Source of the DNA: Helicobacter monodelphidis
Lineage (GTDB): Bacteria > Campylobacterota > Campylobacteria > Campylobacterales > Helicobacteraceae
DNA length: 39,483 nucleotides
NCBI RefSeq assembly: GCF_003288845.1
Contig: NZ_NHYN01000019.1
Location: 1 to 39,483, forward strand
Direction: 5' to 3'
Below, piece after piece: positions 24,321 through 33,558 of the stretch. The notes beneath the pieces were generated by a model. That model was not told where the DNA came from. It saw nothing but the letters and a program-made list of their open reading frames with translations, and ran no database searches. The translations under genes and the position numbers were made by a program. The number at the start of each line of letters is the position of its first letter. Position 1 is the first letter of the stretch.

Positions 24321-25682
24321 TTGTATGATACAATAGTAGCGATTAGTACCCCATTAGGAATGGGGGCTTTAGCGGTTATTAAAATTAGTGGAGACTTTGC
24401 TTTACCTGTTGTGTTGAGGCTTTGTCGTTTAGAGGCTTCACACAGTATTGTTCCGCGTCTTGCAACTTTGAAAACGATTTATGATTCAGCAGGAGATATT
24501 CTTGATGAGGCGATTGTAATTTATTTTCAATCTCCGTGCAGTTATACTGCTGAAGATGTGGTAGAAGTTCAGTGTCATGGGGGGAGTTTCATCGTGCAAC
24601 AGATTCTAGATGAAATTCTTTCTATGCGAGATATACCTATTCGCCTTGCGAAGGCTGGGGAGTTTACCCAACGTGCACTTTTGAATGGACGCATTGATAT
24701 TACTCAAGCAGAGGCTATTGCACAGATAACACATATTAAAGATATTGCAACACAAAAACTTTTAATGCGTCAATTAAAAGGTGACTTGAGAGAATTTATA
24801 CAGAAAGAGCGTGAGGAATTAATGGAATTCCTTGCACATTCAGAAGTTGTGATTGATTATGCTGAAGAGGATTTACCCTCTAATATCCTTTCTTCTATTC
24901 AGGAAAAAATTGCTGATAAAATCTTTGCAAGTGAACGTATTTTACAAGCTTCTTCTTCATTTGTGCATCATCAAAATGGCTTCCAGGTTGCTTTTGTTGG
25001 ACGTCCAAATACGGGTAAAAGCTCTCTCTTGAATGCTATGCTTTTAAAGAATCGTGCAATTATTAGTGATGTTCCCGGAACAACTCGTGATAGCATTGAA
25101 GAGAGCATGACACTCAATCATCATCATATTCGTTTGGTGGATACAGCAGGAATTCGTCAGAGCGATGATTTAATTGAGCAAGAGGGCGTGAATCGTAGTA
25201 AGGATATTTTGCAAAATAGTGATATTATTCTTGCACTATTTGATTCTTCAGAGCCATTACAAGATGAAGATAAGGAAATTTTAGAATTATTGCGACGTAT
25301 TCCTGCAGAATCTATCGTGATTGTCTTAAATAAAAGCGATTGCGAGGTTTGTATTGATAGAGAAGTTTTTTCGGTATATAAACAAGTTGAAATTAGTGCA
25401 AAATATGGAAAGATACAGCCTTTAATTAAGGTTATATCCGAAATTTTAGAGAAGAAAAATTATAGCACAGAGATAATTTTGAGTTCTCATCGTCAGCTTG
25501 AGTCTTTCAGAATAATGGCACAAGAGTTAAGAGAGTCGCAAGTTCCCTTGCAAGAAGGTGAGTTAGAGTTGTTTTCATTTCATATTAGGGCTGCAATAGA
25601 AGCATTGGAACATATTGTGAAGCCTTTTTGTGTTGATGAATTATTTGATGTAATGTTTTCTCGTTTTTGTTTGGGAAAATGA
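24321..25682 (+). CDS. mnmE: tRNA modification GTPase MnmE (TrmE)
   Basis: A 453-residue GTPase that with MnmG modifies U34 in certain tRNAs. The N-terminal domain has GGSFIVQQIL and GEFTQRALLNGRIDITQAEA; the G domain carries GRPNTGKSSLL (about residue 227), DVPGTTRDSI, DTAGIR and NKSD; the protein ends FCLGK, the C-x-G-K motif carrying the essential Cys. The start is TTG at 24321, since an in-frame stop lies four codons upstream. Last gene of the rpmH run before the integrated element. Confidence 0.96.
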   Translation: MYDTIVAISTPLGMGALAVIKISGDFALPVVLRLCRLEASHSIVPRLATLKTIYDSAGDILDEAIVIYFQSPCSYTAEDVVEVQCHGGSFIVQQILDEILSMRDIPIRLAKAGEFTQRALLNGRIDITQAEAIAQITHIKDIATQKLLMRQLKGDLREFIQKEREELMEFLAHSEVVIDYAEEDLPSNILSSIQEKIADKIFASERILQASSSFVHHQNGFQVAFVGRPNTGKSSLLNAMLLKNRAIISDVPGTTRDSIEESMTLNHHHIRLVDTAGIRQSDDLIEQEGVNRSKDILQNSDIILALFDSSEPLQDEDKEILELLRRIPAESIVIVLNKSDCEVCIDREVFSVYKQVEISAKYGKIQPLIKVISEILEKKNYSTEIILSSHRQLESFRIMAQELRESQVPLQEGELELFSFHIRAAIEALEHIVKPFCVDELFDVMFSRFCLGK

Positions 25683-25813
25683 ATTGGGGGAGAAGGGATT
25701 TATTGTAAAAATAAGCTATCCCTCACAATCTAGCGTATTTTTCCTATATTTTAAGGAGAAACTACTAAGTGGGGAAATCCTAAGATAATAGGGTTTTAAT
25801 CTCAAATGAATTC

Positions 25814-25837
25814 AAAGAGTTCTTTCACAAACTCTTT
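25814..25837. repeat. Perfect inverted repeat downstream of mnmE
   Basis: AAAGAGTT (25814-25821), an 8-base loop, then AACTCTTT (25830-25837). No T tract follows directly on either strand. A second small dyad ATCAT/ATGAT lies at about 25854-25867, followed by a T-rich stretch ending in TTTTTTTT (about 25876-25883), which could end mnmE transcription. The first dyad could also be a binding site near the element boundary. No att duplication was found here. Confidence 0.4.
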
Positions 25838-25883
25838 AAATAACTCTAAAATTATCATTTTAATGATACATTTTAATTTTTTT

Positions 25884-26090
25884 TCATCTTCTAGCCTCCT
25901 CTTTGTACGCTAGTATTTCTTTTTCAAATTTTCGTCTCTCTGCACGATAATTTTTGAAATACTCGTGTTCTGTATTCTCTCTTGCAACCATTCCCAATTT
26001 TTCCATTGCTTCACCAAAAGTTAGTAAAGCTCCTTTGTTGTTTTGCGTATGTTGCATGAACGATAAATCATATTGTGGAATCTTTGACAT
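25884..26090 (-). CDS. Small hypothetical protein at the left flank of the element
   Basis: A 68-residue protein, MSKIPQYDLSFMQHTQNN at the N terminus and a strongly charged C-terminal helix (EYFKNYRAERRKFEKEIL). A good ribosome-binding site (AAGGAG, 7 bases before the ATG) supports it as real. A run of nine A precedes the ribosome-binding site on the coding strand. No family recognised; no membrane segment. It lies opposite in strand to the element genes, so it may be either a chromosomal gene or the element's left-end gene, for example a regulator. Function unknown. Confidence 0.6.
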   Translation of the reverse strand: MSKIPQYDLSFMQHTQNNKGALLTFGEAMEKLGMVARENTEHEYFKNYRAERRKFEKEILAYKEEARR

Positions 26091-26354
26091 TTTCCTACTC
26101 CTTTTTTTTTCTTATTCTATAAAAATGTTTGGATATTTTTAAAGGGTGAAAAGGCATTTTTATGTTTATTTTATGGTAAAAAGTCAATTTTGAAGTTTTG
26201 GAGTAAATAAAAATACGAACTATATTTAAAGGGTAACTTTCTTACAAGAGATATGACTAACTCATAGAAAGGAAAGGATACCATTAAAATGAACTTGTAA
26301 TTATGGTTATGGATATAAACGCGTTTTTAATAATGAATTTTTAAGGAAAATTCA
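26091..26354 (+). promoter_or_regulatory. Leader/control region upstream of the antirepressor
   Basis: 264 bases without a long gene. TTTAAAGGGT occurs at 26138-26147 and 26225-26234, possible operator half-sites. TATATT (26221-26226) could be a -10. A good Shine-Dalgarno run (AAGGAAAGGATACC) precedes a minimal reading frame (Met-Asn-Leu-stop, starting at 26289), and a 13-codon frame at 26303-26344 (MVMDINAFLIMNF) ends 10 bases before the antirepressor ATG. These may be translated leaders or chance. It is the natural switch region of the element. Confidence 0.35.
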
Positions 26355-27146
26355 ATGGAATTGCAAATATTTGAAAATGGAAAATTAGGAAGCGTTAGGG
26401 TTGCAGGAGATAATGAAAATCCTTTGTTTTGTTTAAGCGATGTGTGCAAGGTTTTGGAATTGAGTAGCCCTCATAAAGTTAAAAAAGCGATAGAAATTGA
26501 GTTTGGAGAAGGGGGGGAGTTAACTTCCGCCCCTTTATTAACCAATGGCGGTGTTCAACAAGCCACCTTCATCACAGAGCCACAACTCTACTTTGTCCTT
26601 ATGCGAAGCGACAAACCCAAAGCAAAACCATTTAGGCAATGGGTTGTAGGAGAGATTCTACCCAGTATCCGCAAACACGGAGCATATATGACAAAAAACA
26701 CAATGGAGCAGATTTTAGAAAATCCAGATTTTACTATCACTTTGATAGAGCAACTCAAAACAGAAAGGCAAGAGAGGCAGAAACTAGAGACAGAAATCAA
26801 AGAGAATGCGGGTTATCTAGCCTTTGCTAAAGGTGTTGAATGTTCTCAAAGTAGTGTTAATGTAGGCGTATTCTCAAAAATGCTTGAAAAAAGAGGAATT
26901 ATCTTTGGAAAAAACAAGCTTTTTGAATGGCTAAGAAATAATAAATACCTAATAAAAAGCAAAGGGAGAGAATATAATTTACCTTATCAAAGGTATATTA
27001 AAATGGGTATTTTTGAAATTTCTACCACTCTGATTGAAACCAACAAGGAATCATTCCAAAAAAGCACAACAAAAATCACAGGAAAAGGGCAGATATACCT
27101 TGCTGAAAAAATTATCAAAGCGTTGAAAGGAGCTAAAAATGACTAG
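26355..27146 (+). CDS. Phage antirepressor (Bro-N plus KilAC-type domain)
   Basis: A 263-residue protein. The N-terminal Bro-N domain (about 1-105) shows NPLFCLSDVCKVLELSSPHK, FITEPQLYFVLMRSDKPKAK and FRQWVVGEILPSIRKHGAY, all typical. The C-terminal domain (about 140-250) resembles the phage antirepressor ANT/KilAC fold (VGVFSKMLEKRGIIFGKNKL, LFEWLRNNKYLI). Such proteins counter a lysogenic repressor or regulate early genes. A run of seven G at 26511-26517 lies inside the Bro-N coding part and is in frame now; such tracts can vary in Helicobacter. Overlaps the next gene by 8 bases. Confidence 0.88.
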   Translation: MELQIFENGKLGSVRVAGDNENPLFCLSDVCKVLELSSPHKVKKAIEIEFGEGGELTSAPLLTNGGVQQATFITEPQLYFVLMRSDKPKAKPFRQWVVGEILPSIRKHGAYMTKNTMEQILENPDFTITLIEQLKTERQERQKLETEIKENAGYLAFAKGVECSQSSVNVGVFSKMLEKRGIIFGKNKLFEWLRNNKYLIKSKGREYNLPYQRYIKMGIFEISTTLIETNKESFQKSTTKITGKGQIYLAEKIIKALKGAKND

Positions 27147-27420
27147 AAATGAATTCGAAAAAAAACAGAATGAGGCATCAGAAAACTTAATAGAGATAGA
27201 CATTCTTGCAAGGGAGATTGGGGAATTTTATTTTGAAGGGATTGAAGATTTGGAATCGAGAACACATCTTTACGCTCTTTTAGATTTTTTTAACAAGCGA
27301 AAAAGGTTATTAGCTGAAACTGATTTAACTTTCGATAGCCACCTTTTTCAACTCCAAAAAGACGGAATACTAGAAAAAATCATAGATTTTTTAAAACAAA
27401 AAAGGAGCAAAAATGACTAA
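27139..27420 (+). CDS. Small tandem paralog 1 of element, unknown function
   Basis: A 93-residue, acidic, probably all-helical protein, first of three tandem relatives. It begins MTRNEFEKKQNEASENL and ends FQLQKDGILEKIIDFLKQK, both shared with the next two copies; the middle (about 20-70) differs more, with EFYFEGIEDLESRTHLYAL still recognisable. Start overlaps the antirepressor end by 8 bases. No known domain recognised; no Cys pair, membrane segment or HTH motif seen. Possible roles include phage interference or host takeover, but this is speculation. Confidence 0.8.
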   Translation: MTRNEFEKKQNEASENLIEIDILAREIGEFYFEGIEDLESRTHLYALLDFFNKRKRLLAETDLTFDSHLFQLQKDGILEKIIDFLKQKRSKND

Positions 27421-27700
27421 AAATGAATTCGAAAAAGTATGGAATGAGGCATCAGAAAGCTTAAGAGAGATAGTCAGTCTTACAAATGAGAACGAGATTG
27501 ATGATTTTTATTTTGGGGAGATTGAAGATTTTGCTTTGAGAGCACATACTTACACTATTTTGAGCATTTTAAGAAGGGATACAGAAGGTTTATTAGCTGA
27601 AACTGATTTAACTTTCAATAACCACGTTCTTCAACTCCAAAAAGACGGGACACTAGAAAAAATCATAGATTTTTTAGAACAAATAAAGGAGTATAAATGA
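27413..27700 (+). CDS. Small tandem paralog 2 of element, unknown function
   Basis: A 95-residue relative of the first and third copies, MTKNEFEKVWNEASESL at the start and LQLQKDGTLEKIIDFLEQ near the end. It overlaps the first by 8 bases and the third by 4 (ATGA), so the three are translated as one coupled set. The centre reads DDFYFGEIEDFALRAHTY. Its middle is the most divergent of the three. No function recognised. Confidence 0.8.
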   Translation: MTKNEFEKVWNEASESLREIVSLTNENEIDDFYFGEIEDFALRAHTYTILSILRRDTEGLLAETDLTFNNHVLQLQKDGTLEKIIDFLEQIKEYK

Positions 27701-27984
27701 CTAAAAATGAATTCGAAAAAGTATGGAATGAGGCAACAGAAAGCTTTTTGAAAATACTCATTCTTGCAAGTGAGATTGGAGATTTTTATTTTGAAGAGAT
27801 TGAAGATTTGGAATTGAAAACACATCTTTACGCTCTTTTAGATTTTTTAACAAGCGAAAAAGATTCACTAGGTAAAGCTAATTCATTTTTCTATAGTTAC
27901 CTTTTTCAACTCCAAAAAGACGGGATACTAGAAAAAATCATAGATTTTTTAAAACAAAAAAGGAGGCAGGATAATGGAAACTAA
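27697..27984 (+). CDS. Small tandem paralog 3 of element, unknown function
   Basis: A 95-residue third copy, MTKNEFEKVWNEATESFL at the start, GDFYFEEIEDLELKTHLY in the centre, and FQLQKDGILEKIIDFLKQK near the end. Start overlaps the second copy (ATGA). The stop overlaps the next gene by 11 bases, and AGGAGG for that gene lies within this copy's tail. The start and end of the protein are nearly the same as in copy 1. Function unknown. Confidence 0.8.
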   Translation: MTKNEFEKVWNEATESFLKILILASEIGDFYFEEIEDLELKTHLYALLDFLTSEKDSLGKANSFFYSYLFQLQKDGILEKIIDFLKQKRRQDNGN

Positions 27985-28156
27985 ATGGCTATCCATAAGA
28001 GAAACGGCTATTTTATGCAAAGTTTATCCGACAACAATCAGGCAGCACATCAAACGAGGACTTTTACCCGCCACGAAAGTGGGTAAAAGCTATATCATCA
28101 AAGAAGACGATTTAGTGCATTTTAGAAAAAGGAATCGTTGGGATAAGGAAAGCTAG
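27974..28156 (+). CDS. Small helix-turn-helix protein (excisionase-like) 1
   Basis: A 60-residue MerR/excisionase-type DNA-binding protein: WLSIRETAILCKVYPTTIRQ is the helix-turn-helix, GLLPATKVGKSYIIKEDDLV the wing and following strand, as in the HTH_17 family. Strong Shine-Dalgarno AGGAGG. Could be the element's excisionase or an early regulator. A second relative follows directly. Confidence 0.8.
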   Translation: METKWLSIRETAILCKVYPTTIRQHIKRGLLPATKVGKSYIIKEDDLVHFRKRNRWDKES

Positions 28157-28333
28157 ATGAAGGAATTTTACACTATCAGAGAAATTTCAGCATACCTAGA
28201 AATCCACGAAAAAACGGTTAGGAATTGGATAAGAAAAGGCAAGATAAAGTCATACAAACAAGGCAAGATTCGCATTATTCACAGCAGTGAATTACAAAGA
28301 ATTTACCATAAAATACAAAAGGAGCAAAAATGA
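28157..28333 (+). CDS. Small helix-turn-helix protein (excisionase-like) 2
   Basis: A 58-residue protein, FYTIREISAYLEIHEKTVRN (helix-turn-helix) and WIRKGKIKSYKQGKIRIIHS (wing), again of the HTH_17/excisionase type. It starts one base after the previous stop (TAG A ATG) and overlaps the next gene start (ATGA). Too short to be picked up by many gene finders. Two such proteins in tandem suggest one for excision and one for regulation; not proven. Confidence 0.78.
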   Translation: MKEFYTIREISAYLEIHEKTVRNWIRKGKIKSYKQGKIRIIHSSELQRIYHKIQKEQK

Positions 28334-29382
28334 AAACATATGTAGAAATATGCGAACAATACGGCTACAAATTAGCAGGTTTTGCACTGTATGTGCAGGA
28401 GGTAAAACAAAAAGAACCTAAAATTTCTAATAAAGAAATAGCAAAAAGATTAGGAATTGATGAGGCAAATTATTATAGGCTAATAAAAAAGCTGAAAGAA
28501 TTAAATATTTTTTATTTTTTTGAGAATAAAAAACATTGCAAAAATGCAAGTAATCATCTTGCAAAAATGCAAGTTTCAAACATCACACCAGCAAACACAG
28601 CCAAAACCCCTCAAACAATCGTAAAATACGATGATACAGAGGTAAAAGCAAAAAATCGCAATAATGTATTATATAATAATAATATATTCAGTAAACTAAA
28701 CAGTGAACTAGAGTTAACTAATAATACTCAAGAATATCATGAATTAGAGTTAAATAATATTAACAAAGAAAAAGTTAAAAAAGAAAGTTTGTTTGATGAA
28801 ATACCTTCTAACAACAACTTTTCACCCTTTGAATTACTCTATCATTTTGACTTTGCAGACAAAGATATGAGCAATGCGTGGCAAGAATTTTGCAACCACC
28901 GCAAAGAGATTCGCAAAAAACTCACAAAAAGAGGTGCTTTTTTGATTCTCAAACGCCTTAAAGTATGGGAAAATGAGGGCTTTTCACCCTCTGAAACTTT
29001 AAGACTTTCAGTGATGAATGGTTGGCAGGGAGTTTTCAAACAAACAAACACCCTTAAACAAAACACTGCCATAAATAGCCCTAAAAGCCACGAAAATCAA
29101 CAAACAATAGCGAGGTTGATAAATATGTCTAACTTGATAGAAAAAACGCTTTTTGAGCGTTTTAACTATGGTTATATGGATTTTGAGGAAAATAGGGATT
29201 GTCCATACTTGATTAATGGAGAAAAAATCTATTGTGTTGATAATTTTCATTACTCAAGCTGGAAAAAACCGCTTTTGTATCTCTTTTTCTTAGAGAGCGA
29301 CAAAGAGATAGTCAAGCAATTCTATCAAAACCAAGCAAAAGAATCATTCGAAGTGATAGACTGCAAAGAGTTAAGGAGCTAA
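28330..29382 (+). CDS. Phage-type replication protein (replisome-organiser/helicase-loader-like)
   Basis: A 350-residue protein. The N terminus (about 15-65) looks like a winged helix (ISNKEIAKRLGIDEANYYRL). The middle (about 70-165) is low-complexity and Asn/Lys rich. The part at about 183-235 (AWQEFCNHRKEIRKKLTKRG, then SVMNGWQGVF) matches the conserved WxxFxxHR...GWQG[LI]F pattern of phage replisome organisers related to O/DnaT/DnaD-type loaders. The C-terminal 100 residues are unrecognised. The DNA of the middle holds direct repeats (see the origin entry). It probably opens the element's origin and loads the host helicase. Confidence 0.7.
   Translation: MKTYVEICEQYGYKLAGFALYVQEVKQKEPKISNKEIAKRLGIDEANYYRLIKKLKELNIFYFFENKKHCKNASNHLAKMQVSNITPANTAKTPQTIVKYDDTEVKAKNRNNVLYNNNIFSKLNSELELTNNTQEYHELELNNINKEKVKKESLFDEIPSNNNFSPFELLYHFDFADKDMSNAWQEFCNHRKEIRKKLTKRGAFLILKRLKVWENEGFSPSETLRLSVMNGWQGVFKQTNTLKQNTAINSPKSHENQQTIARLINMSNLIEKTLFERFNYGYMDFEENRDCPYLINGEKIYCVDNFHYSSWKKPLLYLFFLESDKEIVKQFYQNQAKESFEVIDCKELRS
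28536..28759. other. Candidate replication origin inside the replication gene
   Basis: The 16-base sequence TTGCAAAAATGCAAGT is present exactly twice, at 28536-28551 and 28559-28574 (23-base period). The second copy with its leading C is a perfect dyad (CTTGCA, four A, TGCAAG). An AT-only-like stretch follows (about 28660-28690). Then a 19-base repeat with two mismatches occurs at 28705-28723 and 28741-28759. Iterons plus an AT-rich unwinding region inside an initiator gene is the layout of the phage lambda O origin and several satellites. Inference from sequence only. Confidence 0.55.
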
Positions 29383-29383
29383 A

Positions 29384-29806
29384 ATGAACATCAATGCAAT
29401 TTTTCAAGAACTCATCAACAAAAGCGAAGCAGGTGAGATAGAACGTAGATTAATCAAAGAGGAGCTAAGAAAGCTACCCAATCCATCGCTAAACCGATTC
29501 TCTCAACGCATTTTTGGAGATGAGGACAATATCATTTCTTTCAAGATTGACTACAAAGCCATTAGGCATTATGTGCGAAGAGAGCTGAAAGACTATTATG
29601 GCGATATGCTAACAAGCCTCAATAATGCGTTATTTATGTGCAAACTAAAGGGCGTAAAAGAGGCGAGAATAGAATATGGCGGCATTGTAATGCTTGAGAG
29701 TGATGAGCTAAAAAACATTCTCAAAAGTGGTTGGAATGAGGATTTACTCATAGAAATTGTAAGGAATAAGACAGATGACAAAAAGAATCCGTATTTGTCA
29801 AGATGA
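29384..29806 (+). CDS. Element protein of unknown function
   Basis: A 140-residue protein starting one base after the replication gene. It is charged, with an N-terminal helical part (IFQELINKSEAGEIERRLIK) and a central YKAIRHYVRRELKDYYGDML region. KLKGVKEARIEYGGIVMLES suggests a small mixed alpha/beta fold. I recognise no family. Its end overlaps the next gene by 32 bases. Conserved position between replication protein and SSB suggests a replication or recombination accessory role, unproven. Confidence 0.7.
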   Translation: MNINAIFQELINKSEAGEIERRLIKEELRKLPNPSLNRFSQRIFGDEDNIISFKIDYKAIRHYVRRELKDYYGDMLTSLNNALFMCKLKGVKEARIEYGGIVMLESDELKNILKSGWNEDLLIEIVRNKTDDKKNPYLSR

Positions 29807-30062
29807 GCAGAGTTTAGGTCAATTACTCATCTCTTTGCAAAAATCAGTCTTTAGCATAGAAGAAAGGCTACAGATTATCGAAAATAGGCTAGATAAGGCG
29901 GTTTGTGAGGTAACTATCAAAGAAGCAGCAATCCTAAAAGGCGTCAGTGGCAGTGCCATTTACCAAAAGCTTTGGAGAACAAAAGGGATAGAACCACAAA
30001 AAGATTTTTTCAAACGCGGAAGAAAGTATTATATTCGTGCGAGTGCATTAAGTTTATTGTGA
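29775..30062 (+). CDS. Putative DNA-binding protein of the element
   Basis: A 95-residue protein with an N-terminal helix (SLGQLLISLQKSVFSIEERL, coiled-coil-like) and a C-terminal part resembling a helix-turn-helix/excisionase wing (VTIKEAAILKGVSGSAIYQK, then RGRKYYIRASALSLL). It overlaps the preceding gene by 32 bases. Third HTH-like small protein of the element; target unknown. Confidence 0.7.
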   Translation: MTKRIRICQDEQSLGQLLISLQKSVFSIEERLQIIENRLDKAVCEVTIKEAAILKGVSGSAIYQKLWRTKGIEPQKDFFKRGRKYYIRASALSLL

Positions 30063-30072
30063 AGGAAAAAAA

Positions 30073-30387
30073 ATGTTACACGAAAAGATGAGAGCAATTT
30101 TCAAAGAAGGTCGATACAAGGAGCTTTACAATGAAGTCAAAAAAGGCGAGATTATCTGCTTGAGCGTGATTGATGGCAAAGATGAATTTCTCATCCTCTC
30201 TTACAAAGACAGGCTATATGTTCGTTTAGGCGGTATTCATAATGGCATTGAAATTCCAATTTCAATCAGCGAAGATGACTTTGTGAAAAGTTGCTCATAT
30301 TACAAAGTTGCATGGTTTGGTGGAGGCAAGGAGAATGAGGATTTAGAAGGAATGCCAGATTGCTACAAAAAAGATTTAAAGGATTGA
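30073..30387 (+). CDS. Element protein of unknown function
   Basis: A 104-residue protein, helical N terminus (KMRAIFKEGRYKELYNEVKK) followed by beta-rich text (ICLSVIDGKDEFLILSYKDR, LYVRLGGIHNGIEIPISI). Ribosome-binding site GAAGG 8 bases before the ATG; one base separates its stop from the ssb start region. No family recognised. It could be a single small beta-barrel-like protein, possibly acting with the SSB, but that is a guess. Confidence 0.7.
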   Translation: MLHEKMRAIFKEGRYKELYNEVKKGEIICLSVIDGKDEFLILSYKDRLYVRLGGIHNGIEIPISISEDDFVKSCSYYKVAWFGGGKENEDLEGMPDCYKKDLKD

Positions 30388-30388
30388 T

Positions 30389-30799
30389 ATGTTTGAGATT
30401 AACGGTATAGCGAGGATTACGCATAATTTGGAGCTAAAAACATTACCTAGTGGAAAAAGTATGTTGAATTTGCAATTAGCGAGCAACAAGAAACGTAAAG
30501 ATGATAACGGAAATAGCATTGAAGAGGCTTGTTTCTTAGAATGCACAGCATTTGGCGCTCACGCAGATACAATCTTTCATTATCTGAAAAAGGGCAGTCC
30601 TATTTTTGTGCGAGGAGAGCTTAAGCTAGAACAATGGAATGATATTGAAGGACAAAAAAGGCAAAAGCATAAGATGATTTTAAGCTCATTTGAGTTTGTG
30701 CCAAAAACAACAGAGGCGCAAAGCGATAAAAAAGAGGTGCAAAAACATCAAGTCCCTAATGTGAGGATTGAATATGATGAGGAAGACATCCCATTTTAA
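30389..30799 (+). CDS. ssb: Single-stranded DNA-binding protein of the element
   Basis: A 136-residue SSB. OB-fold text: FEINGIARITHNLELKTLPS, SMLNLQLASNKKRKDDNG, FLECTAFGAHADTIFHYLKK and GSPIFVRGELKLEQW. The C-terminal tip ends DEEDIPF, the acidic tail that recruits replication proteins. It differs from a chromosomal SSB in being shorter and inside the element, so it likely serves the element's own replication. It lies just before the integrase gene. Confidence 0.92.
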   Translation: MFEINGIARITHNLELKTLPSGKSMLNLQLASNKKRKDDNGNSIEEACFLECTAFGAHADTIFHYLKKGSPIFVRGELKLEQWNDIEGQKRQKHKMILSSFEFVPKTTEAQSDKKEVQKHQVPNVRIEYDEEDIPF

Positions 30800-30818
30800 G
30801 CAAGAAAGGAGCGGAAAA

Positions 30819-32033
30819 ATGCTAGAATCAAAGAGCCTACAGCCTCCTTTTACAAAGGTAGGTTTGATGAAAAAATACAAACATGTGTATGCTAGAAATG
30901 GCATTATATATATCGCAGGAACGATTCAAGGAGTGCGTTATAGAAAATCCACAGGAAAGGTGGCAAACGCCTTGAATATGAGATGGTGCGATGAAAATTG
31001 GCAGAATGTTTTGCAGGACATACTCGCAAATGAAGGTATGGAAAAGGTTGCAAAAGCAAAGGTAGAGATTGAACGTAGAGGTTCTTTAACATTGGAGAGA
31101 TATGCCGAAAAAATGTTTGAGATTTGGCAGACAGTGTGCAAAAAAAGCACACTGGATATGAGAAAAAGAGTCTTTAGGACATATGTCATGGGTAAAATCG
31201 GGGATTTGAAAATCAATGAAATTGATTACTCTGTTTGCAGAGACTTCATCCATTCTCTCAAAGACAAAAATGGGAATGCGCTGGGTGCAGCGATGGTAAA
31301 GAATGTCAAAATATTGCTCAACCTATTTCTTAACGAGGCGGTGAGAGAGAAAATCATTGCAGAAAATCCGATGAAAGCGGTTAGAACGATGAAAGTGATA
31401 CGCAAATCTGTAGAGCCATTCACAGAGCGAGAAATGAGCTTGATGATTGAAAGTTGTGAAAATAGCCTTGAGAGGGCATTTATCGTAACCGCATTTTTCA
31501 CAGGAATGCGGACAGGTGAGCTACTTGCTTTGCAATGGGATTGCGTGGATTTTACCAACAAAACGATTCTTGTCAAGTCATCTGTTTACAAAGGCGAGTT
31601 AAGCACGACAAAAACAGGCAAAGAAAGGCAGATTGATATGCTTCCGATTGTGGAAAGTGCTTTGAAAAGGCTTAAGGAAGAATCAAATAGCGATTTTTGC
31701 TTTTGCACCAAATATGGAAAAATGTTAAGTGGCACAGGTTCTATTCGCCGATTGTGGTGCAAGATTTTACAAGATAGTGGCATTGCTTATCGCAATGTTT
31801 ATCAGACAAGGCATACTTTTGCAAGTTTGATGATAAGCAAAGGTGAAAATGTAATGTGGGTGCAGAGAATGCTTGGACATTCAGATTTGCGGGTTACATT
31901 TTCTCATTATGCGAAGTATGTCCCGACTTCAAATACGCAAAAGGCGTCTTTTGTGAGTGAGAGTTTTGGGAATGTGTTGAGTTGCTTTGAAGTGGATTCA
32001 GAGAAAAACCACGCAAAAAACATTCTGTGTTGA
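30819..32033 (+). CDS. int: Tyrosine recombinase/integrase
   Basis: A 404-residue integrase with an N-terminal arm-binding part (KYKHVYARNGIIYIAGTIQG), a SAM-like core-binding part (about 95-190) and the catalytic domain: Arg of box I in FFTGMRTGELLALQWD (near residue 230), box II YQTRHTFASLMIS (Arg-His; the usual first His is Tyr), LGHSDLRVTFSHYAKY with the nucleophile Tyr. I chose the ATG at 30819, with AAGGAG 7 bases upstream, over a start 17 codons earlier inside ssb. It is the last gene of the element, its 3' end facing the probable attachment end. Confidence 0.93.
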   Translation: MLESKSLQPPFTKVGLMKKYKHVYARNGIIYIAGTIQGVRYRKSTGKVANALNMRWCDENWQNVLQDILANEGMEKVAKAKVEIERRGSLTLERYAEKMFEIWQTVCKKSTLDMRKRVFRTYVMGKIGDLKINEIDYSVCRDFIHSLKDKNGNALGAAMVKNVKILLNLFLNEAVREKIIAENPMKAVRTMKVIRKSVEPFTEREMSLMIESCENSLERAFIVTAFFTGMRTGELLALQWDCVDFTNKTILVKSSVYKGELSTTKTGKERQIDMLPIVESALKRLKEESNSDFCFCTKYGKMLSGTGSIRRLWCKILQDSGIAYRNVYQTRHTFASLMISKGENVMWVQRMLGHSDLRVTFSHYAKYVPTSNTQKASFVSESFGNVLSCFEVDSEKNHAKNILC

Positions 32034-32047
32034 AAAAAACACAGGAT

Positions 32048-32066
32048 TGGCACAAAAATGGCACAA
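32048..32066. repeat. Two direct TGGCACAA copies just past the integrase gene
   Basis: TGGCACAA at 32048-32055 and 32059-32066, an 11-base period (about one DNA turn), 15 bases after the int stop. This is the layout of integrase arm-type sites near an attachment site. Not found elsewhere in the window by eye. Confidence 0.45.
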
Positions 32067-32126
32067 GCGGAGTTTAGCTTCTTAGAAAAGGCATAGATAG
32101 GGGTTTGTGGGAATAGGATAGATTTG

Positions 32127-32151
32127 AGATTCTGCATTATTCTTAGAATCT
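32127..32151. repeat. Inverted repeat AGATTCT/AGAATCT downstream of int (possible att core or terminator)
   Basis: AGATTCT (32127-32133), an 11-base spacer, AGAATCT (32145-32151), followed by a TC-rich run. Either a hairpin ending the int transcript or a core-type dyad. No matching copy was found on the left side near mnmE. Confidence 0.35.
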
Positions 32152-32394: not shown

Positions 32395-33558
32395 TTAAGG
32401 TAGAGTTTTTTTACTAATGCAAAGTACTAAGCCAATCGCAATACAATTTGCAATAAGAGAGCTTCCGCCATAACTATAGAAAGGTACGGCAATTCCTTTG
32501 ATGGGGGTTAAACCAGAAATTCCATAGGCATTAATCAAGAAGGAGAATCCAAGCATTAAGCCTATACCTATACAAAAGAGGTATGAAACTTGACTTTGAC
32601 TACGATTTGCAATGCGGAATATGCGATAAATAATAGCTAGAAATAGAATGACACATAAGATTAATCCAAACAAACCTACTTCTTCAGCAATTCCCGCTAA
32701 TACAATATCAGTATGCACTTCACTTAAAAAGCCAAGCTTAATAAGTCCATTACCTAAACCTTCACCAAAGAATCCGCCATTTTGAATTGCATTTAAAGAA
32801 TGCTGAATTTGATAGGGTTCAGGAAGATTTTCTACTCTAAGAGGAGCAGCAAACCATTCAGGTAAAATTGAGAGGATAAATTTTTGCGAGATTGCCCACC
32901 ATTGTTTAATGCGCAAGATACGATGGTCACTACTCACAATCAAGATAAATACAGCAAAAATTGCACCAAAAAGCAAAGAGAAAAAGAGCTTAAAGCTCCC
33001 ACCCGCACAAAGCAGCATTAGGACAAATGTGATTCCTAAAAGAAAGATTTGTCCTAAATCATTCTGTAAAATTGCAATTAAAAAGCCTAGAATAATCAAT
33101 AAAATACCATAGGGAAGAAAGATTCTGAATTCTTCTTTAAACTCCTTTATTGAATCTGTTTCATCATATTTGCGTGCAAAACTCCATGCTAAAAAAAAGA
33201 TGAAACCAATTTTAAAAAATTCTACAGGGGAGAGAGAAAAAAAGGGAAAGCGAATCCATCTTTTTGCACCTCCTGCACTTGTTGCGAGGCTTTCAGGGAG
33301 AAAATGCATTACAAGCATTAAAACCATACAAACAAAAAAGAGTAAGAAACCTATATTCTTAACAAGGCTATCTGGATTTCCGCGTGAAATAAGCCACATT
33401 AAGGTAATTCCAATAATGCCAGAAATAAGTTGGCGTATAAAAAAATGAAACTGTCCGTATTCAAAATATAAAATTGTGTATGCAGATAAAGAATAAGATG
33501 CAAGAATGCCGATTAATATGGCGGTTGAGGTAAGTACAAAAAGAGTTCTGTCAATCAA
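32395..33558 (-). CDS. ftsW: SEDS-family septal glycosyltransferase FtsW
   Basis: A 387-residue polytopic membrane protein of the SEDS family with about ten helices. Motifs: ILQNDLGQIFLLGITF, GGFFGEGLGNGLIKLGFLSE and HTDIVLAGIAEEVGLFG in the long loop, and GIAVPFYSYGGSSLIANCIA at the end. It polymerises lipid II at the septum with a class B PBP. FtsW rather than RodA is inferred from linkage to flgB-flgC-fliE-ftsI as in H. pylori (as I recall). Start appears to be TTG at 33558 with AAGGGAT upstream; no ATG fits nearby. Confidence 0.88.
   Translation of the reverse strand: MIDRTLFVLTSTAILIGILASYSLSAYTILYFEYGQFHFFIRQLISGIIGITLMWLISRGNPDSLVKNIGFLLFFVCMVLMLVMHFLPESLATSAGGAKRWIRFPFFSLSPVEFFKIGFIFFLAWSFARKYDETDSIKEFKEEFRIFLPYGILLIILGFLIAILQNDLGQIFLLGITFVLMLLCAGGSFKLFFSLLFGAIFAVFILIVSSDHRILRIKQWWAISQKFILSILPEWFAAPLRVENLPEPYQIQHSLNAIQNGGFFGEGLGNGLIKLGFLSEVHTDIVLAGIAEEVGLFGLILCVILFLAIIYRIFRIANRSQSQVSYLFCIGIGLMLGFSFLINAYGISGLTPIKGIAVPFYSYGGSSLIANCIAIGLVLCISKKTLP

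Follow-up and report, generated by a model that had tools for sequence, protein, structure and literature searches.

A compact phage-derived island in Helicobacter monodelphidis, probably one end of a trimmed temperate prophage

A 5.7-kb run of genes at positions 26355 to 32033 of a Helicobacter monodelphidis contig (NZ_NHYN01000019.1; its full 39,483 bp were analyzed and are referred to here as the window) is a phage-derived island that bears an integrase and has no recognized structural genes. It is probably an incomplete prophage of a known Helicobacter phage lineage: the right end of a temperate phage, with its genes for lysogeny and the initiation of replication, retained after loss of the left part. 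An earlier sequence-only reading of positions 26091 to 32151 favored a satellite like the phage-inducible chromosomal islands (PICIs) and named a trimmed prophage as the main alternative. The trimmed prophage fits better because relatives of the module belong to full phages and no left end was found.

Relatives of the core module are joined to full phages

The core of the island is formed by a lambda O-like replication initiator (Rep), a conserved 140-residue protein (X), a small helix-turn-helix (HTH) protein, and a tyrosine integrase (Int). In the family-wide protein search, which covered 121 genomes of the Helicobacteraceae, integrases with 34 to 39% identity (E <1e-60) were found only in genomes G003, G001, and G111, and a relative of Rep was found in Helicobacter sp. 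13S00477-4 (G109). The order Rep-X-HTH-Int is common to the window, G109, and G111, at distant identity. In G109 (contig C40), where the HTH protein is TerS-like, the module is contiguous with genes for DnaB, primase, TerL (phrog_38, 1.3e-101), and a portal protein (phrog_156, 1.1e-93). In G109, DnaB and primase come after Int, and one junction of the two in G111 shows this arrangement as well. The window, in contrast, has no DnaB, primase, terminase, portal, or giant-protein gene, and no left attachment (att) site was found.

The G111 junctions came to light when all of contig C18, which carries the module, was used as a DNA query. Exactly 127 bp at the int end of C18 are common to the ends of contigs C39 and C8. 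C39 continues into hsdS, dnaB, comEC, and ubiA-like genes, which are chromosomal, and C8 continues into genes for phage DnaB, primase, and TerL. We infer, from overlaps in the assembly rather than from reads, that a point joined to both chromosome and phage is as attR plus attP would give. At its left end, C18 has an arm pair as well as a core-like point, and the latter has 90 bp in common with contig C12, where a giant-protein gene follows.

Other relatives were more partial. In G003 (contig C85), the order X-HTH-Int is clear, there is weak support for the tail of a Rep gene (6 of 500 shuffles), and the module adjoins a chromosomal autotransporter-like gene. In a profile search, Rep-type genes were found in Campylobacter-type genomes, an H. 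acinonychis-like genome (G023), and H. bilis, most of them lying in prophages that also encode DnaB, primase, or terminase. Scans of viral contigs with Int, Rep, the antirepressor, and a paralog gave distant relatives or none; searches of phage and plasmid proteins returned no relative of Rep, and protein X had no match among phage proteins. The sequence-only reading called for a comparison with other Helicobacter genomes. The core module recurs in the Helicobacteraceae, and the island as a whole is absent from every other genome searched. That reading had also stated that a satellite would be refuted if the genes always stood beside full phage modules. In part this is so, since homologues of the core stand within or beside such modules in G109 and G111.

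The G109 and G111 temperate phages are the closest known systems, sharing with the island an O-like Rep, the gene order, and, in G111, arm repeats after Int. Unlike these phages, the window has an additional antirepressor, three paralogs, a single-stranded DNA-binding protein (SSB), and a 104-residue protein. H. pylori phages of the KHP40/1961P type are more distant, and their likeness to the island lies in the integrase (~31% identical, as in other Helicobacter prophages). Incompleteness is frequent among Helicobacter prophages; examples are subcluster A4, prophage F16, and 78 incomplete prophages in non-pylori species, and at least one retains only the DNA-metabolism end (PMC4860318, PMC11840440). 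Judged by these published descriptions, the island is similar in having kept one DNA-metabolism end and lost the structural part but differs in having no pseudogenes.

A solitary integrase gene beside tkt, with no adjoining phage genes, was also observed in two sister species, G001 and G003 (L024:15549-16685 and L026:5173-6309).

Gene content and a putative replication origin

The window is an entire contig (C42) of a 1.985-Mb genome in 131 contigs. The island is flanked by mnmE, which ends at 25682, and by a gene of the ftsW/rodA family (32395 to 33558, minus strand). Its 12 open reading frames (ORFs) are all on the plus strand, intact, and overlapping or almost touching (Table 1), and in the sequence many are preceded by an AGGAG-type Shine-Dalgarno motif. 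Every gene that the sequence-only reading had listed on this one strand (antirepressor, Rep, SSB, three HTH proteins, three tandem paralogs, and integrase) was present and intact. Its statement that capsid, packaging, lysis, and conjugation genes are lacking was borne out as well. Family and phrog profile searches recognized no structural, packaging, lysis, or conjugation families among the genes of the island, which also has no relaxase gene, and tblastn of the whole window with TerL, portal, candidate capsid, DnaB, primase, and giant proteins of Helicobacter phages gave zero matches. No tRNA or Rfam element was found across the window.

Table 1. Features of the island and its left flank, with window coordinates
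Feature	Position	Strand	Remarks
Degenerate small-peptide repeat, coding sequence and 3' part	25712-25913	-	77% identical to C73:118-312; also C46, C40
68-aa ORF, membership uncertain	25884-26090	-	No family match, no phage match
Leader/promoter part of small-peptide repeat	26107-26243	+	82% identical to C41:32476-32611; directly upstream of antirepressor operon
Bro-N + KilAC antirepressor	26355-27146	+	Bro-N PF02498 2.7e-18; KilAC/ANT PF03374 1.9e-22; phrog_130 1.3e-76
Orphan paralog 1, four-helix protein	27139-27420	+	Model pLDDT 85, no fold match
Orphan paralog 2	27413-27700	+	No phage or plasmid match
Orphan paralog 3	27697-27984	+	No relative among viral contigs
HTH_17 protein, excisionase/AlpA-like	27974-28156	+	PF12728 1.7e-10; phrog_66 excisionase/regulator
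HTH_17 protein, excisionase family	28157-28333	+	PF12728 3.1e-12; TIGR01764 41.2 bits (cutoff, 28.8)
Rep, lambda O-like replication initiator	28330-29382	+	phrog_678 "replication initiation O-like" 3.6e-20; aligned with G111 and G109 Reps
Origin-like site within rep	28536-28720	+	Two exact 16-bp iterons at 28536 and 28559; AT-rich stretch from 28650
Protein X (140 aa)	29384-29806	+	Between Rep and HTH/Int, conserved; 28% identical to G003:C85; no family
HTH protein (95 aa)	29775-30062	+	Adjoins Int in relatives
104-aa protein	30073-30387	+	No family; structural model poor
SSB	30389-30799	+	PF00436 1.5e-23
Tyrosine integrase	30819-32033	+	PF00589 2e-24; ATG 30819 after AGGAG; longest ORF from 30768
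Arm-type direct repeat TGGCACANNNNTGGCACA	32048-32065	+	After int; sole perfect copy in genome
Inverted repeat AGATTCT-N11-AGAATCT	32127-32151	+	Candidate attR core region

The origin-like site lies within rep, in the linker between the N-terminal winged-helix part and the C-terminal part of the protein. The iterons are 23 bp apart and are followed by a stretch of ~80% A+T; an exact 16-bp repeat of this kind appeared in none of 300 codon-shuffled versions of rep. In the same linker, rep of G111 and rep of G109 each have an AT-rich stretch and repeats of their own that differ from these. Iterons and an AT-rich stretch inside the initiator gene are the layout of a lambda-type origin. Rep has no primase domain, and no ORF of the island encodes a primase.

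A homologue of the 95-residue HTH protein stands immediately before int in G003, in G111, and in an integrative and conjugative element (ICE) of Sulfurovum (0 of 500 shuffles for each), and this HTH protein is probably an excisionase or a partner of Int. The integrase is 33 to 38% identical to its relatives, with the catalytic boxes of tyrosine recombinases conserved. The other integrase gene of the genome (contig C54) stands alone, without an adjacent prophage.

The second and third tandem paralogs are 58 to 66% identical in protein sequence to the first. No relatives of the paralogs were found in phages, plasmids, viral contigs, or PADLOC, and a structure search with the confident four-helix model gave a best E value of >1. 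Pairwise nonsynonymous divergence (dN, 0.20 to 0.27) exceeded synonymous divergence (dS, 0.14 to 0.19), with large errors for three short paralogs of ~93 codons; this suggests, as a hint, diversifying or relaxed selection.

A second, partial Bro-N antirepressor-like gene is present in the same genome, at the end of contig C68 downstream of an AAA ATPase gene (L239:3936-4481; 56% identity over 117 N-terminal residues).

Ends of the island

The right end looks normal. The repeat TGGCACANNNNTGGCACA after int is probably an integrase arm site because the same repeat, with the same spacing, follows int in G111 and a near-identical one does so in G003. The inverted repeat beyond it lies at a distance from the arms comparable to that of the branch point in G111, and position 32151, which the sequence-only reading gave as the right boundary, is the end of this inverted repeat. 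The proposed left boundary did not hold. Position 26091 is merely the base adjoining the start of a 68-residue ORF on the opposite strand; the first gene of the island starts at 26355, and the left end cannot be defined. Searches for exact and mismatched repeats found no attL/attR direct repeat of >11 bp, no second integrase arm pair at the left side, and no left copy of the inverted repeat.

The left flank does contain repeated DNA. The segments at 25712 to 25913 and 26107 to 26243 aligned as two halves of one unit, consisting of a leader, a 30-codon peptide gene, and a 3' part. The intact copy on contig C73 encodes the 30-residue peptide MKKTLKLIVKMIALELLKEFFQKLLEFISN; the copy in the window is frameshifted near its start, and its halves are in opposite orientations. 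The repeat occurs in at least four other genome locations (C73, C46, C40, and C41). It was considered as an att duplication and rejected, since it is a dispersed small-peptide locus. It is plausible that the opposed fragments mark the point of deletion or rearrangement at which the left part of the prophage was lost.

The small-peptide locus is dispersed in the genome with a conserved leader, and copies were seen at L092:200-289, L091:9646, and L093:2437-2562. In size and dispersal, it looks like a multicopy, partly degenerate type I toxin family.

Trimmed prophage and alternative origins

In a trimmed prophage, the lost left part would have held the left att site together with genes for DnaB, primase, terminase, and structural proteins. 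Rep would bind the iterons that its gene contains and would load a helicase. Because the phage DnaB is absent, this helicase would now be the DnaB of the host; SSB would assist, and the primase for replication would likewise have to come from the host. At least one of the HTH proteins may steer the integrase toward excision, and the antirepressor, now lacking an adjacent repressor, might act on the repressors of other phages or be idle. The segment alone is probably incapable of excision: because only one arm and att side is left, self-excision would fail, and the island would therefore be stably resident.

Several observations weigh against loss from a larger prophage. No direct trace of a deletion was found: the locus has no truncated phage gene or pseudogene, and there was no sister strain or empty site among the genomes compared. 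When the relatives were searched for an unoccupied site, mnmE and ftsW turned out to lie on separate contigs with differing neighbors, and the order of neighboring genes differed in every relative compared. All 12 ORFs are intact and packed, whereas decaying prophages usually contain some pseudogenes of lost phage genes. The antirepressor, the three paralogs, and the gene for the 104-residue protein have no counterpart in the G109 and G111 modules. Furthermore, Rep-X-HTH-Int of G111 is flanked on each side by an arm pair and a core-like branch point, the two points ~3.65 kb apart, and is possibly a mini-element in tandem with a phage.

This spacing, together with the chromosomal autotransporter-like gene that the G003 module adjoins, would be consistent with a minimal phage satellite, or an integrative island able to replicate, that is complete in itself; Int and HTH proteins would excise it, Rep and the internal origin would replicate it, and a helper phage would package it. 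An intact, economical operon with an origin, Rep, SSB, excisionase-family HTH proteins, and Int would also be expected of such an element. Nevertheless, we consider it unlikely that the island is one. Its left end, a second arm pair, and a flanking repeat were not found, and in G109 and G111 the core module is joined to full phage genes. Like PICIs and P4-like satellites, the island combines an integrase with a replication gene and carries no structural genes. Of the regulators typical of such islands (AlpA-like or divergent Stl-like), it has candidates in its excisionase-family HTH proteins, and no divergent Stl-type repressor was seen. With ends that are not defined by an att pair, an O-like Rep in place of a primase-Rep or primase-helicase, and no recognized terS, interference gene, or gene that redirects packaging or capsids, it does not fit the PICI-like profile first proposed for it. 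The antirepressor is comparable to epsilon of P4, which switches on the P2 helper prophage, and in a satellite it could do likewise. The search for helper prophages that the sequence-only reading recommended found none: tblastn with proteins of the phage lineage over 1.25 of the 1.985 Mb (63%) returned no TerL or capsid, only a portal fragment inside an ICE and pieces of the giant protein (PBECR1). A whole-genome search with the generic TerL profile phrog_2 gave just a weak, nonspecific match in this genome; it is not decisive, as the TerL of the related phage lineage is phrog_38. The phage-inducible chromosomal minimalist islands (PICMIs) of the Vibrionaceae are also very small, with an integrase, an AlpA-like HTH protein, and a replication gene and no structural, terS, or capsid-remodeling genes (PMC10803314). 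PICMIs are inserted next to fis and encode a primase, and both their excision and their helper are proven; the island, in contrast, lies between mnmE and the ftsW/rodA-family gene in a member of the Helicobacteraceae, has no primase, and yielded neither a second end nor a helper. It is doubtful that the window, G003:C85, and G111:C18 represent a family of minimal Helicobacteraceae satellites (3.6 to 6.5 kb; Rep with an internal origin, X, HTH excisionase, and Int), in which G111:C18 would stand in tandem with a potential helper prophage.

Two further origins have less in their favor. The island might be a piece of some integrative element of this genome, conjugative or not, or a hybrid with one; it would then share its integrase arm sites and its SSB or regulator genes with ICEs. 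The genome has an ICE with a type IV secretion system (T4SS) on contig C43 that carries its own SSB, a Rha-type regulator, and a phage portal fragment. Arm-like repeats are present at contig ends beside PBECR1 proteins, and the HTH-Int pair recurs in the Sulfurovum ICE. Yet the island has no conjugation or relaxase gene, its Rep is phage O-like, and the relatives of its antirepressor and Rep are phage proteins, making this origin improbable. It is very improbable that the island is a vertically kept, domesticated phage cluster with a host function, e.g., superinfection exclusion by the three paralogs. The intact genes and the excess of dN over dS in the paralogs would fit, but the whole cluster was in no other searched genome, the paralogs are just three and short, with large errors, and a search for defense families gave only a weak mad1 match, to a generic HTH.

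Other mobile DNA in the genome was also noted. At ~187.8 to 188.4 kb of C43 (L253:7799-8353), the T4SS conjugative element contains a truncated portal gene of phage type along with a gene for an Rz1-like lipoprotein. Next to this pair is a VirD4-like gene that is shortened, and the arrangement is a mosaic of ICE and phage. A 195-bp repeat (96% identical) with the arm-like sequence TGNCACAAAATTGGCACA is present at two contig ends (L081:1-195 and L082:15221-15415), one of them beside a tRNA cluster. These are probably ends of other integrated elements.

Implications

No phage satellite described in Helicobacter was found in a literature search within a partial library. If the island were truly a satellite, it would be the first in Helicobacter, as far as that search shows, and among the smallest known. 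If it is instead a prophage remnant, as we consider probable, it is a case of prophage erosion in which a replication-initiation and integrase module has been kept intact in a Helicobacter-type lineage, and its antirepressor could still affect other prophages.

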